From Bacteroidales bacterium (lineage in GTDB: Bacteria > Bacteroidota > Bacteroidia > Bacteroidales > UBA932): 64,000 nucleotides of DNA. Made by a program: the position numbers and the translations under genes. The notes under the pieces are model-generated. The model worked only from the letters and a program-made list of their open reading frames with translations. It made no database searches and had not been told where the DNA came from. The DNA is taken from contig JAFZIN010000007.1 of the NCBI GenBank assembly GCA_017554305.1, forward strand, positions 62,001 through 126,000. Reading direction: 5' to 3'. This document shows, piece by piece, positions 28,981 to 44,213 of this stretch (the first letter of the stretch is position 1; each line of letters opens with the position of its first letter).

Positions 28981-29017
28981 AAAAAAAAGAGAGTTGCGAA
29001 GGCAACTCTCTTTTTTT
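28981..29017 (+). terminator. Intrinsic terminator of tRNA-Asp
   Basis: A-tract, stem GAGAGTTGC/GCAACTCTC with loop GAAG, then seven T. The A and T tracts also pair, so it could work in both directions. Confidence 0.92.
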
Positions 29018-29031
29018 GCGGTGCTTTGCAC

Positions 29032-29105
29032 TTTTGTCCCCCCCGGCTTTGCCGGCCCCTCTAGGGGCATGCGATGCTCCGCATCGGGCGCAAGCGCCTT
29101 ATTAA
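29032..29105 (+). repeat. Four-hairpin intergenic element, copy A
   Basis: Hairpins in order: CCGGC-TTT-GCCGG, CCCC-TCTA-GGGG, CGATGC-TCC-GCATCG, GGCGC-AA-GCGCC, then CTTATTAA. It lies between the tRNA-Asp terminator and the 3' end of the AMP-ligase gene. An extra hairpin GGTGC-GAAA-GCACC follows at 29109-29122. See copies B (32551) and C (43921). Confidence 0.85.
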
Positions 29106-29121: not shown

Positions 29122-30903
29122 CTATTCTATCTTGATGCCTTGGGCGGCGAGCATCTTGAGGCCTATGTCTTTCAGTTTGAATTTCTGGATTTTACCGCTG
29201 CCGGTAAGAGGATACTCATCTACAAAGAGAACGTACTTTGGAATCTTGAAGCGGGAGATTTTTCCAAAGCAGAAGTCCTTTACTATCTCCTCTGAGAGGT
29301 TGGCTCCCTCTGCAGGAATGATGTATGCGGCAACCTGCTCTCCGTACTTCTTTGACGGAATACCGGCAACCTGAACATCCTTTACGCCAGGGAGTTTGTA
29401 AAGGAACTCCTCAATCTCTCTAGGGTAGATATTCTCTCCGCCCCTGATTATCATATCTTTAATGCGGCCTGTAACCTTGAAGTTGCCGTCCTCGTCCAAC
29501 ACTCCCAGGTCTCCGGAATGGAGCCAACCGTCCTTGTCTATTGCCTCAGCCGTAGCCTCAGGATTGTTGTAGTAACCCTTCATTGTGTTGTATCCGCGGT
29601 TGCAGAACTCGCCAACCTCACCGGGCTTGCAGAAGTGTCCTGTTTCCGGATCTATTATCTTGACTTCTGTATGCTCGAACTCGTAACCTACTGTTGTACA
29701 GCGCTCTTCAAAGGTCTGCTCAAATCTTGTGTGAGTCATTCCAGGAGAGGCTTCCGTAAGACCGTAAACGCTTGTCACCCTCATATACATCTTCTCCTCA
29801 ACCTCTCTCATCAGCTCAATAGGACAGAGAGCCCCGGCCATAATGCCCACTCTCAGACTCCTGAGGTTGAACATATCAAACATTGGGTGGTTGAGCATTG
29901 CAATGTACATTGTAGGAACTCCGTAAACGGAGGTACATCTCTCTTTGTGAATGGAAGCCAGAACTACCAGCGGATCAAAGCGTTCCACCATTACCTGAGT
30001 ACAGCCGTGAGTAAGCACGTTCATTGTAGCCAGCACTATTCCAAAGCAGTGGAAGAGCGGCACGCAGCAGCAGAGTTTGTCCTCTGAGGTAAAACGCATG
30101 TGTTCTCCGGTAAGGAATCCGTTGTTTGTAATGTTGTAATGCGTTAACATTACGCCCTTTGGAAAGCCTGTAGTTCCGGAGGTATACTGCATATTTACAA
30201 CATCCAGGCAATTGGTCTTCTCTTTGAGAGCGTTGAGCATAGCGTCTCCGGAATTTTCTCCCAGTATCATGAGTTCCTGAGTGTTGTACATTCCGCGGAA
30301 CTTCTCCTGTCCAATATAAACAACGTTCTTCAGGCACGGAAACCTCTCACTCTTAAGCTCTCCGCGGGGACAAGTCCGCAGCTCCGGCAGCATCTGGTAG
30401 ACCATGCTGAGATAGTCCGTATCTCTGTCGCGATCAATAACACAGAGAGTATGCAAATCTGCATTCTTGCAAAGGTACTCCAGCTCGTTCTGCTGGTAGT
30501 TGGTATTGACGGTAACGCTCACCGCTCCAATCTTTGAGCAGGCGTACATTATTGTAAGCCAGTCCGGTACGTTGGTGGCCCAGATTCCCACGTGAGTTCC
30601 TCTGGTAACGCCAATGCCAATCAGACCCTTGGCCATTGTATCAATTCTCTGATTGAACTGCTTGTATGTAAAACGTAAATCTCTGTCTGAATAGACTATG
30701 GCCTCCTTATCCGGAGTCTCCTCAGCCCATTTCTCCATCCACTGACCTATAGTGAGCTCGCTTAGAGGCAGTTGCTTATTTTTCCTGCGAAGCCTCTTCT
30801 GAATTTCTGCAAGAATCTTGTTGGAACTTTTCTTTATCTGCTCTACCGTCTGCCCTCTTCCGGTGTTTTTAACCGGACGGACTCTCTTAGCGGATTCTCT
30901 CAT
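29122..30903 (-). CDS. AMP-dependent acyl-CoA synthetase/ligase
   Basis: 593 aa. ANL-superfamily motifs: [13 protein letters not shown] (ATP/AMP loop, ~residue 242), [18 protein letters not shown], and the C-terminal lysine motif [13 protein letters not shown]. It activates a fatty or aromatic acid as acyl-AMP and transfers it to CoA. The first ~45 residues are an unusually basic extension before the normal family start ([13 protein letters not shown]). No other start codon fits, and the gene begins 12 bases after the XRE-cupin gene, so the extension looks real. The acid used is unknown. Confidence 0.9.
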
Positions 30904-31581: not shown

Positions 31582-32505
31582 ATGGATTTCAGACTTAAGG
31601 TTTTTGTAACAGCTGCAGAGGAACTCAACTATTCCAACGCGGCAAAGAAACTGAACATAACACAGCCCGCTGTAACGCACCATATCAAGCTTTTAGAGGA
31701 ACAGTACGGCCTTCAGCTTCTTTCCCGCAAAGGCAATCGTTTTACCCTTACCTACAGCGGAGAAATCTTTTTGGAGAGGGCAAAAAAAATACTTTCAATT
31801 TATAAGGAGATTGAACAGGAGAGCATTTTACTCTCCAACGTGGCGGAGGGTGTATTCACCATTGGAGTGCCGGAGCCTATCTACTACGGAATTTTTCCCG
31901 ATTTTACCGCAGATTACTGCCGCCTCTCTCCAAAGGCCACCATATACCATAAGATTCTGAAATTAAAAGAGATAAATGAGGCGGTAAAGAGCCAGCAGGT
32001 AAACGTTGGCATTACCGTTTCACATACACCTCCAACTCCGGAAGAAGAGGCCGGCGGCTTCTTTACAGACAGGCTTTTAGCGCTTACCTCATCACCCGTA
32101 AAGAGTGACATCTACTATGATTTGCCGGAGACCAAACTCCTTCTCTATGACGGTGATCCTGAAACAAGTGCAGAGATAACCTCCATAATCTCCAAGGCGG
32201 GCCATAGCCTTAACAACCTAACCGTTGCCGCCACAATGAAAGACCCAACCTCTGCCCTCAGATTTATGGCGGAATACGGCCTGGGCAACAAAGGCACCAC
32301 CTACCCGTTAATGGGATTCTTCTGGAAAAGCCAGGTATCCAAGATGTTAGAGAGCAAGATAATCTCACCTGTAAACATTACGGAGCTGCAGGATCAGACC
32401 CCGCCAACCAGAAGGTACTGTATTGCACAGGCCGCCGGCAAAGAGATACCGGGCTTTGCCACGTATGCCAGGGGCTGGGCGGAGAAAAAGAACCTGGGGC
32501 TATAG
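31582..32505 (+). CDS. LysR-family transcriptional regulator
   Basis: 307 aa. N-terminal winged HTH (residues ~1-60: FVTAAEELNYSNAAKKLNITQPAVTHHIKLLEEQYG), then a periplasmic-binding-type effector domain (~88-300). The start fits the family exactly, even though the -7 box leaves almost no leader. It is divergent from the XRE-cupin/CoA-ligase pair, a common layout for control of neighbouring genes. The effector is not known. Confidence 0.92.
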   Translation: MDFRLKVFVTAAEELNYSNAAKKLNITQPAVTHHIKLLEEQYGLQLLSRKGNRFTLTYSGEIFLERAKKILSIYKEIEQESILLSNVAEGVFTIGVPEPIYYGIFPDFTADYCRLSPKATIYHKILKLKEINEAVKSQQVNVGITVSHTPPTPEEEAGGFFTDRLLALTSSPVKSDIYYDLPETKLLLYDGDPETSAEITSIISKAGHSLNNLTVAATMKDPTSALRFMAEYGLGNKGTTYPLMGFFWKSQVSKMLESKIISPVNITELQDQTPPTRRYCIAQAAGKEIPGFATYARGWAEKKNLGL

Positions 32506-32550: not shown

Positions 32551-32630
32551 TTTGTCACCCCGCTGACACAGTCAGCACCCCTCAAGGGGGTATGCTGTGC
32601 TCCGCACAGGGCACTGAAGTGCCTTGTTAA
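32551..32630 (+). repeat. Four-hairpin intergenic element, copy B
   Basis: Hairpins: GCTGAC-ACA-GTCAGC, CCCC-TCAA-GGGG, CTGTGC-TCC-GCACAG, GGCAC-TGAA-GTGCC, then CTTGTTAA. Stem sequences differ from copy A but remain paired; the TCC and TCAA loops and the GCCTTnTTAA end are kept. It lies between the convergent lysR and acetyltransferase genes. Confidence 0.85.
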
Positions 32631-32660: not shown

Positions 32661-33254
32661 TTATTCTTCAATCTTGTAAACGGTGTTGTTGTAGAGGCGG
32701 TAGCGTTCTCCGCTTTCAGGGCAGACGGCAATCATAGAGCCGTCCTTCTCCTTTTTGAAGTTGAGGCGGCAACCGTAACGGCTCATCCAACCAATCTGAC
32801 GTGATGGATTGCCAACAACAAGAGCGTATGGAAGAATGTCCTTTGTTACAACGCACCCCGCACCAATAAAGGCGTATTCACCTATGTTATTGCCACATAC
32901 AATGGTTGCATTTGCTCCAATGGTTGCGCCCTTCCCCACAAATGTCTCTTTATAAGCGTTTTTGCGGTTTACCGCACTGCGGGGATTTATCACATTTGTA
33001 AAGACACAGGAAGGCCCCAGGAATACATCATCTGCACAACTAACTCCGGTATAGACAGATACGTTGTTCTGAACTTTGCAGTTTTTCCCCAGAGTAACAC
33101 CAGGAGAGATAACCACATTCTGCCCAATGTTGCAGTTCTCACCCACCACGGCACCGCTCATAATGTGAGAGAAATGCCAGATCTTTGTTCCCTCACCAAT
33201 GGAACAACCCTCATCTATCACCGCTGTTGGGTGTACAAAAAACTTCTCTTCCAT
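32661..33254 (-). CDS. Left-handed beta-helix sugar N-acetyltransferase (WlbB/WbpD-like)
   Basis: 197 aa. Hexapeptide-repeat protein with many V/I-G-x-x-x units (SIGEGTKIWHFSHIM, VTLGKNCKVQNN, FVGKGATIGANATIV, AYAFIGAG-like). The start FVHPTAVIDEG and the sequence KIWHFSHI fit the UDP-2-acetamido-3-amino-2,3-dideoxyglucuronate N-acetyltransferase group used for O-antigen sugars. None of the partner enzymes (WlbA, WlbC) is nearby, so it is an orphan here. Its last ~45 residues (KEKDGSMIAVCPESGERYRLYNN) are a small C-terminal add-on. Confidence 0.82.
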   Translation of the reverse strand: MEEKFFVHPTAVIDEGCSIGEGTKIWHFSHIMSGAVVGENCNIGQNVVISPGVTLGKNCKVQNNVSVYTGVSCADDVFLGPSCVFTNVINPRSAVNRKNAYKETFVGKGATIGANATIVCGNNIGEYAFIGAGCVVTKDILPYALVVGNPSRQIGWMSRYGCRLNFKKEKDGSMIAVCPESGERYRLYNNTVYKIEE

Positions 33255-42673: not shown

Positions 42674-43915
42674 ATGACAACAGTAATATTAGTTTCTATA
42701 GTAGTATTCTTAATCATCACTCTGCTGCTGGTTATTTTACTGCTCTTTGCCAAGGCAAAACTGCTTCCTAGCGGAAACGTTACCATAGACATTAATAACG
42801 GTGAAAAACAGATAGAGGTTGCAACCGGCGGTACACTCCTTACCGCACTTGCAGAGCAGAAGATTTACCTGCCATCCGCTTGCGGTGGAAAGGGTAACTG
42901 CGGTATGTGTAAGTGCCAGGTAATCAGCGGTGGCGGAAGTATCCTCCCTACTGAGACCGGCTTCTTTACACGCAAGGAGCAGCTCTCCAACTGGAGACTG
43001 GGCTGCCAGGTTAAGGTAAAGGAGAACCTGGGCATTCTGCTTCCTCCTGAGGTATTGGGAGTTAAGAAGTGGGAGTGCACAGTTGTCAGCAACCACAACG
43101 TTGCTACATTCATTAAGGAGTTTGTTGTTAAACTCCCAGAGGGTGAGAACGTTAACTTCCGCAGCGGCGGTTACATACAGATAGATGTTCCTGCCTGCGA
43201 GGTAGATTACAAGAACATAGATGTAGAGCCTGAGTACAGAGGAGACTGGGAGAAGATGGGAATCTTCAACCTTAAGATGGTTAACCCAACTCCAACATTC
43301 AGAGCATATTCTATGGCCAACCACCCAGCAGAGGGCAACATCATTATGCTCAACGTGCGTATTGCAACTCCTCCGTTTGACCGTGCAAAGAAGGATTGGG
43401 TTCCTGTAAATCCGGGAATCTGCTCCTCTTACATCTACTCACTCAAACCGGGCGATAAGATCACAATATCAGGTCCTTACGGTGAGTTCTTCATTAAGGA
43501 TACAGACAATGAGATTGTATTCATAGGCGGTGGCGCCGGTATGGCTCCAATGAGAAGCCACATCTTCCACCTCTTTAAGACTCTCCACACCAAGAGAAAG
43601 GTAAGCTTCTGGTACGGAGCTCGTTCCAAGAGAGAGATGTTCTATGATGAAGACTTTGCAGAGATTGCAAGAGAGAATCCTAACTTCTCATACAACGTTG
43701 CACTCTCAGACGCTCTTCCGGAGGACAACTGGACAGGTCCTAAGGGCTTCATTCACCAGGTACTCTTTGACAACTACCTGAAGAACCACCCTGCACCTGA
43801 AGATATTGAGTACTACCTCTGCGGTCCTCCAATGATGACCAATGCGGCAGTGAATATGCTTGATAATCTGGGCGTTCAGCCGGAGAACATCATGTACGAT
43901 AACTTTGGAGCATAG
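42674..43915 (+). CDS. nqrF: Na+-translocating NADH:quinone reductase subunit F
   Basis: 413 aa. N-terminal helix (5-25), 2Fe-2S ferredoxin domain with Cys70, Cys76, Cys79 and Cys111, FAD site [14 protein letters not shown] site [13 protein letters not shown] and a C-terminal YYLCGPPMM. It oxidises NADH and feeds electrons into the pump. It has a good Shine-Dalgarno (AGGAGG at 42661-42666). Presence of A and F proves NQR and not RNF. Confidence 0.98.
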
Positions 43916-43920
43916 GTGAG

Positions 43921-43996
43921 TTAAAAAGGCGCTCAAGCGCCCGGCTCGGAGAGCCGTGATGCCCCTTGAGGGGCCGGCAAAGCCGGGGGTGAAATA
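43921..43996 (-). repeat. Four-hairpin intergenic element, copy C
   Basis: Read on the minus strand: CCGGC-TTT-GCCGG, CCCC-TCAA-GGGG, CGGCTC-TCC-GAGCCG, GGCGC-TTGA-GCGCC, then CTTTTTAA. It lies in the nqr 3' untranslated region between the nqrF stop and the terminator, opposite in orientation to copies A and B. Confidence 0.85.
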
Positions 43997-44002
43997 GTAA
44001 AT

Positions 44003-44041
44003 GATGGATGGCCAAATCTTTTTGGTCATCCATCTCTTTTT
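44003..44041 (+). terminator. Intrinsic terminator of the nqr operon
   Basis: 14-bp stem GATGGATGGCCAAA/TTTGGTCATCCATC with one G-U pair, loop TCTT, followed by TCTTTTTT. Confidence 0.92.
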
Positions 44042-44213
44042 TGCTTCTGCGCAGGCCCTCTGTTAGTGTGCTGCCGGACTGCCTCTATTCGTAGGTAAAT
44101 TGAGGTTGTTTGGAGGTATTTTACCATCGCGATAGATAATGGCAAAAAATTTGAATAACACAAGCTAAAGACTCTAGAGTAAACTAAAACCTTTACCTTA
44201 AAAAAGAAGTGTT

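Follow-up and report, generated by a model that had tools for sequence, protein, structure and literature searches.

Among the closest described systems, the REP and BIME elements are palindromes scattered through intergenic DNA; they lie at the 3′ ends of genes, frequently where two genes converge (PMC1525189, in the passages on these elements); a BIME is made up of alternating copies of one unit (as set out in part of PMC2817692), and GTAG REPs often supply the stop codon of a flanking ORF (PMC3733652, in the section concerned). A subclass of RAYT (TnpA-REP) transposases from Bacteroidetes is flanked by atypical secondary structures (according to excerpts of PMC6006769). The BOX elements of Streptococcus pneumoniae (with RUP and SPRITE) are modular boxA-boxB-boxC repeats with predicted stem-loops, over-represented between convergent genes (PMC3049150, in the part describing them), and the TMECO/PIT elements of E. 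coli and 262 proteobacterial genomes consist of a C arm, a short loop, a G arm, a 3-nt loop and a second G arm, and are intergenic, multi-copy, without strand bias and very uneven among relatives; their triplex formed in vitro, but an in vivo footprint did not show it (PMC4666352, in the portions on structure and distribution). The repeat family described here, from a Bacteroidales genome, shares its dispersal and placement with REP/BIME, the supply of a stop codon at some sites with the GTAG REPs, and both the order of the arms and the pattern of occurrence with TMECO/PIT.

The original prediction had placed three copies of a four-hairpin element at 29032-29105, 32551-32630 and 43921-43996 of the 64,000-nt stretch of DNA analysed here (the window; contig JAFZIN010000007.1), each within a gene 3′ region; all three were found at these places, and the stems and loops quoted for them were correct on inspection. 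A covariance model built from 26 copies of the window's genome, the three window copies among them, returned exactly these three matches in the window at E up to 1, specifically 43921-43992 on the plus strand (4e-24), 29037-29105 on the minus strand (1e-20) and 32555-32630 on the minus strand (4e-19). The location in gene 3′ regions was likewise borne out by ORF analysis, in which copy 1 lies 17 nt past the stop codon of a gene for an AMP-binding enzyme, copy 2 lies 31 nt past that of a hexapeptide-repeat gene, and copy 3 lies 6 nt past that of a gene that we take to be NqrF-like, its product having Fer2, FAD-binding and NAD-binding domains. Read from the H4 end, which is the minus strand for copies 1 and 2 and the plus strand for copy 3, the architecture is TAATAAG–H4–H3–linker–H2(CCCC/GGGG)–optional H1–GGGG(G)TGA; in the aligned copies the start is mostly TAAnAAG and the end is a G-run followed by TGA or TTA. 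H4 is of the GGCGC type, H3 of the CGGNNC type, and H2 consists of CCCC(C), a loop and (G)GGGG, with a linker of ∼3-5 nt; the hairpins are interchangeable, three or four to an element.

Copy 1 (29037-29105, minus strand) comprises H4 (29087-29098), H3 (29072-29086), H2 (29055-29068), H1 (29044-29054) and a G tail (29037-29043); it follows the AMP-binding-enzyme gene (29122-30903, minus strand) and faces a tRNA-Asp gene, and a terminator-like hairpin with a perfect stem of 16 bp (28982-29017) lies between copy 1 and that tRNA gene on the G-tail side. Copy 2 (32555-32630, minus strand), with H4 at 32610-32623, H3 at 32595-32609, H2 at 32578-32589, H1 at 32562-32576 and a G tail at 32558-32561, is flanked by convergent genes at 31582-32505 (plus strand) and 32661-33254 (minus strand). 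Copy 3 (43921-43992, plus strand) lies past the stop of the gene at 42674-43915 (plus strand) and runs through TTAAAAA (43921-43927), H4 (43928-43941), H3 (43942-43956), the linker (43957-43960), H2 (43961-43974), H1 (43975-43985), the G tail (43986-43989) and TGA (43990-43992); on its G-tail side stands another terminator-like hairpin (44003-44034), with a perfect stem of 8 bp and further inner pairs.

A covariance-model search for further copies, proposed along with the original prediction, gave 32 matches at E < 1e-3 in the 1.82-Mb genome of the window (89.5% complete; 150 of 239 first-look candidates scored) and more in its relatives. One pair of the 32 overlaps on opposite strands, so that they represent 31 places; the H2 core pattern CCCCTNNAGGGG alone occurs at 28 sites in the genome, against none for the backward control. 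Within the genus, 22 of 39 sampled genomes were positive with a second model (21 of 37 with the first), carrying between 1 and 33 matches each, and the other 17 of the 39 gave no match at E ≤ 1e-4. The family had 53 positives among 299 sampled genomes, about one relative in six, spread across 7 of 25 genera, and the order had three among 393, namely the window's genome and two from the same family; the order search used stricter filters and scored 12 candidates per genome, so weak matches may be missed. Other families gave no match in that search of 393 genomes, and none in 24 other-family genomes with the first model. The first model listed 97 matches outside the window's genome, around which 80 stretches were fetched. 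The short-form core had no exact match in viral_contigs, and the element family was not met in searches of open-licence PMC papers and of Rfam.

In another genus of the same family, genomes G649, G624, G667 and G063 carry near-identical units of ∼150 nt at several sites. The unit of G649 has GTGGGTGGGTCAAAAG at one end and at the other a terminator-like hairpin that varies in sequence among copies, most of which remain well paired, and that typically reads GAGGGTGACCAAAAG-loop-CTTTTGGTCACCCTC. A second subtype was seen at G649 loci L361-L370, where a longer imperfect hairpin (CGAGAGCGGTTCTATGAGAATGTCC...) replaces H1 between the H2 G-run and the tail. Elements also occur in head-to-tail arrays of two or three, with periods of ∼100-170 nt including flanking sequence, at L278 (G020), L247 (G015), L385 and L318 (G667), and L390 (G535). 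Genomes G635, G665 and G671 yielded more than 1000 first-look candidates and few accepted matches, and a different but related high-copy palindrome may be present in them. Contig C8 of genome G011 (L065, L203, L212, L219) carries the three window copies at identical spacings of 3518 and 11366 bp, and the proteins at L065 are 100% identical to those of the matching locus in the window's genome; this sharing likely reflects recent transfer or a mixed assembly, and the G011 copies are thus not independent of those in the window.

Of the cells in the 26 copies from the window's genome, 99.0% pair, against a mean of 83.8 in shuffles, and 64 show two-sided changes, compared with 19.5 in shuffles, but further pair types were not above shuffles (13 and 13.7). 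Over 103 distinct rows from the genus, 97.8% of cells are paired, double-change cells number 254 against 71, and further types 37 against 26; every measure lies above all 500 shuffles, which preserve column make-up but ignore relatedness, and 15 of 16 pairs show two-sided changes. The claim that a change on one arm is matched on the opposite arm thus holds well beyond the three copies on which it was made, with relatedness left aside in the shuffles. Because the hairpin arms change together, the folded shape is likely the preserved feature. The sequences of H3 and H4 vary freely. In H2, by contrast, the four inner C-G pairs are identical in 98-102 of the 103 rows, a constancy that is partly a selection artefact, as the seed copies were chosen by their H2 core. 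Single-sequence folding gave a weaker signal, with z = -1.1, -3.2 and -3.0 for the three window copies on the strand of the original prediction. Among 1604 paired cells, 147 are A-U and 12 (0.7%) are G-U; either the arms swap as a pair, or pairing is needed on both strands.

The surroundings of the element were assessed by simple ORF calling for 28 copies, of which 18 lie between convergent genes, four have both genes running along the element, four have both running opposite, one is divergent and one is at a contig end; the divergent copy faces a tRNA 3′ end, and the contig-end copy has a gene on one side only. The same calling flagged two of the 28 inside an ORF of 100 aa or more. A coding 3′ end is touched by 26 of the 28 copies in the ORF analysis, and by 41 of 45 loci in the other genus, where co-directional orientations number 8 and 10. 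The equal co-directional counts (4 and 4), together with the coding 3′ ends at 26 of 28 copies, therefore describe an element that stays at 3′ ends without a fixed strand.

These figures bear on an alternative in which the repeat is an RNA element of the mRNA 3′ UTR (a decay block, a 3′-end processing signal or a termination helper) acting on the transcript of the upstream gene. Such an element would agree with a start that is often within tens of nucleotides of the stop codon, with the TAA stop that the repeat itself supplies in several species of two orthologous sets, with the covarying arms, with the hairpin that follows on the G-tail side, and with the G-A and A-G oppositions inside the H3 stem in the other genus. 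We consider it unlikely, however, given the near-equal co-directional orientations in both genera, the G-U share of 0.7%, the 17 genus genomes without a match, and a small sample of seven window proteins that were looked up and showed no functional theme. Rfam at gathering thresholds reported only two tRNAs in the window; at four element loci searched with E up to 5 it reported one tRNA and others far below gathering scores, none of them at the element. According to the original prediction, selection acts on the molecule once folded, be it RNA or single-stranded DNA, as in REP elements or a structured RNA; the many copies, the arm covariation and the 3′-end sites fit a REP/BIME-like repeat, and the structured-RNA half of the proposal is weakened by the 4 vs 4 strands, the 12 G-U cells in 1604 and the lack of an Rfam family at threshold.

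Opposed G-A and A-G in stems are a common RNA motif. In copies from G649 and G063 (e.g., L313), H3 reads GCGACTGGAAGGAGCG, with G-A and A-G opposed inside the stem, and at the same H3 positions L308 and L314 have full Watson-Crick pairs.

In a second alternative, the repeat would be a module that terminates or insulates converging units from both sides, above all tRNA, tmRNA and SRP RNA genes; both strands would fold and the last hairpin with its T-rich end would halt read-through from the opposite side. The 18 of 28 copies between convergent coding genes suit this explanation, as do the 10 of 28 that lie no more than 165 nt from the 3′ end of a tRNA or tmRNA, the near absence of G-U, which suits pairing on both strands, and the antisense direction, in which H4 is followed by TTATTA or TTTTTA. 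Against it, the T-tracts are interrupted in most copies, and it is not clear that convergent placement is commoner than among larger gaps: convergent gaps make up 9 of 51 in the window overall and 7 of the 14 that are at least 100 nt long, so that gap size accounts for much of the convergent placement (18/28 compared with 7/14; p = 0.09). On balance a module of this kind is improbable.

A perfect hairpin of at least 9 bp lies within 100 nt of the element on the G-tail side in 23 of 26 copies and on the other side in 4 of 26; the same test gave 0 of 25 for far stretches and 0 of 260 for shuffles. Where a hairpin separates the element from a tRNA or tmRNA gene, as at L004, L015, L019 and L026, it can overlap the 3′ end of the mature RNA by several nt; at L019, beside a tmRNA, its 21-bp perfect stem extends 8 nt within the gene.

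Comparison of orthologous sites showed that the element is gained or lost between species. At the site of copy 3, no element was found in the 19 named relative loci, out of 20, that include downstream sequence, and the model matched none of the 80 named loci that surround the nqrF-like gene. In locus L123, whose nqrF-like gene is 94.5% identical, both flanks align, and the 159-bp segment of the window (43915-44073, coordinates from two flank alignments) faces 77 bp, an empty site; a hairpin resembling the one at 44003-44034 is present at the empty site in both L122 and L123. A second set concerned the interval between two genes that, from their sequences, we take to be mltG and ffs (SRP RNA). 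This gene order was found in 17 of 29 loci read out of 30 fetched (L412, with an internal stop, was left out), and among the 17 the interval was occupied in seven, empty in nine and filled by other sequence in one. In the occupied loci the element begins at, or a few nucleotides from, the mltG stop, and its H4 is GGCGC/GCGCC, GTCGC/GCGAC or GCTGC/GCAGC, with one mismatch in the copy from G027; H4 thus differs yet pairs among these species, and a paired change has occurred at one orthologous site. The copies common to the seven species have persisted for long by vertical descent, as a purely parasitic repeat would not need to. Both site comparisons count against the termination or insulation module, in that many relatives have no element at either site, and at mltG-ffs the G-tail side adjoins the start of a gene rather than the end of one.

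A perfect hairpin of at least 12 bp over the ffs promoter is present in three of the seven occupied mltG-ffs loci, the other four reaching only 3-6 bp, and none of the nine empty loci exceeds 5 bp in the same strict test. In L394, L397 and L398 the sequence adjacent to the element repeats the ffs promoter region in inverted orientation, with perfect lengths of 16 bp in G032, 14 bp in G027 and 12 bp in G017.

The element is also a mosaic, and in the window's genome H1 varies independently of H4 and H3. Over 30 rows from this genome, H1 shows no association with H4 or with H3 (the observed value was reached in 484 and 756 of 1000 shuffles, respectively), whereas H4 is linked to H3 and the H2 closing pair to H1 (0 of 1000 shuffles each); for H3 with the H2 closing pair the count was 231 of 1000, and for H4 with that pair 32 of 1000, so a weak link is kept. 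Over 104 rows from the genus the cross-half links are all present (H4-H1, 31; H3-H1, 3; H4-H2 closing pair, 1; H3-H2 closing pair, 0 of 1000), as shared descent would give, and reassortment of the modules is incomplete. Swaps were also seen at an orthologous site, where L033 and L068 have the same H4 and H3 but a different H2 and H1, and L033 and L064 share H1 to H3 but differ in H4.

Mobilisation by a RAYT transposase, as for a REP or REPIN-type element, would fit the hairpins, the intergenic sites and the dispersal, and the window's genome does encode two RAYT-like proteins (315 and 291 aa; 46 and 38 bits to NF047646, cut-off 80), the predicted start of one gene lying 365 bp from an element copy and outside the direct repeats that belong to the RAYT gene; the Bacteroidetes RAYT subclass with atypical flanking structures is a further point in its favour (PMC6006769, as excerpted). 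The original prediction had suggested looking for such a gene, and the expected connection failed to appear. Among 37 genus genomes, 17 have both element and RAYT, 4 the element only, 10 RAYT only and 6 neither (Fisher p = 0.27); the element was absent from the 17 RAYT loci fetched out of 68 congener matches and from four of another genus, 0 of 21 in all outside the window's genome; the nearest element-RAYT pair on one congener contig is ∼44 kb apart (place lists compared by eye); and four of the eight copy-bearing genomes of the other genus, G667, G624, G677 and G673, have no RAYT match. Both RAYT-like genes of the window's genome are instead flanked by other repeats of their own: direct repeats of 72 and 141 nt and a tandem of 52-nt period at L031 (1930-3692), and palindromes of 52-nt period in inverted orientation on both sides at L032 (171-3757). 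RAYT-driven mobilisation was rejected on these flanking repeats, the 21 loci and the lack of co-occurrence, and as an account of how the element moves it is very improbable.

A gene travelling with the element was likewise set aside, since the neighbouring ORF stretches of at least 90 aa in four genomes, mostly within 1.5 kb of copies, held no recurring protein; besides the element's own reading frames, similarity was limited to two AMP-ligase-like stretches, three ABC-type ATPases and one pair in G667. No target duplication was seen by eye at eight sites in the other genus, and terminal similarity is imperfect (GTGGGTGGGTCAAAAG / CTTTTGGTCACCCTC) and confined to one genus.

The G-run that follows H2 (or H1) tends to match the length of the H2 stem. 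From 165 assembled elements, six without a parse or tail were removed, and L203, L212 and L219 (the G011 window copies), L263, L264 and L265 (duplicate or cut) and L277 had been left out of the set. In 125 of 159 elements (65 on average in shuffles) the tail mirrors the H2 purine arm exactly, as it does in 37 of 62 rows distinct per genome (20 in shuffles); these counts are not a clean test, because the subfamilies are related. Among the 34 tails that are not mirrors are G5 tails beside C4 stems, found in G015 and G020, and two further copies (G004 and G017) lack a tail altogether. A free-tail search with any pyrimidine/purine-arm pattern over 398 genomes gave 23 matches (backward control 5), which by eye were 21 short-form elements and two chance matches; 20 of the short forms are CCCCC/GGGGG/GGGGG, and one is CTCCC/GGGAG with the tail GAGGG. 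Genome G024 has two more variant elements, with a GGGAG arm and a GAGGGG tail, and these two variant lineages are the only ones that separate a mirror from a plain G run.

In the variants, the GAGGG tail is the mirror that a purine-motif third strand needs, whereas a second Watson-Crick partner of CTCCC would be GGGAG. An alternative in which the two G-runs alternate as Watson-Crick partners of one C-run would fit their equal lengths, but it does not fit GAGGG against CTCCC. Mirror-type covariation in the two lineages thus hints at a selected triple helix. Taken further, the near-invariant core, made up of a C-run, a loop, a G-run, a short loop or H1, and a second G-run (a Y-R-R layout), may be selected as a foldback DNA triple helix whose third strand keeps its mirror relation to the hairpin as it evolves, and the mosaic repeat around it would copy itself by way of folded single strands of DNA; this is a tentative proposal, and we regard it as possible though doubtful. 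If true, it would be the first evidence from sequence evolution for a preserved intrastrand DNA triplex in bacteria, and if the mirror covariation holds, it would provide a comparative test for DNA triplexes, which the footprinting described in part of PMC4666352 did not support in cells.

Overall, the element is probably a dispersed modular palindromic repeat beside gene 3′ ends. The hairpins formed by its DNA are the likely reason why it spreads and is retained, and its CCCC-GGGG-GGGG core is predicted to form a short triple helix. A strand-symmetric hairpin spacer at 3′ ends best fits the absent strand bias and the scarcity of G-U. Single-stranded DNA, for example on the lagging strand, would fold into the hairpins, and a trans-acting function, or copying by template switching, would put the element at 3′ ends, which may also be where it does least harm. 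Once settled, it would likely be held as such a spacer between stop codon and terminator; since this spacer would be strand-symmetric, both strands would have to pair and G-U would be avoided. The triple helix is a prediction, as is any influence of the element on transcription ends. An uncultured Bacteroidales lineage thereby gains a populous repeat family with natural compensatory mutants and with empty and occupied orthologous sites, in which the role of such palindromes, be it as parasites, terminators, or supercoil or replication structures, becomes directly testable.

The element differs from each of the systems that it resembles. Like MITEs it is short, non-coding, base-paired and multi-copy, but it shows no target duplication by eye, has imperfect terminal similarity in one genus only, and has no partner transposon among the sequences searched. 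In TMECO/PIT the arms are 9 nt long and the motif stands alone (PMC4666352, in its structural part), compared with arms of 4-6 nt embedded between hairpins here; in E. coli those elements lie upstream of ORFs more than downstream (same source, in part), whereas the present element is at 3′ ends. The TMECO/PIT motif sequence CCCTCNCCC... was not encountered among the parsed copies, whose arms of 4-6 nt are CCCC or CCCCC in nearly all cases, and the TMECO/PIT database search, as the relevant section of PMC4666352 describes it, excluded stems under 6 nt. In contrast to REP/BIME, the element is without RAYT linkage, its stems vary while pairing stays, and it is composed of different hairpins in a fixed order; the GTAG/CGTC stem-foot tag of REPs was not noticed on inspection of the alignment. 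BOX differs from it in sequence, phylum and module set, and the words covariation and compensatory are absent from the text of the BOX paper (PMC3049150). We place the element with the BIME/BOX kind of interspersed repeat: it is palindromic and mosaic, its lineage and its set of modules are new, and it is distinct from the RAYT-associated REPs.
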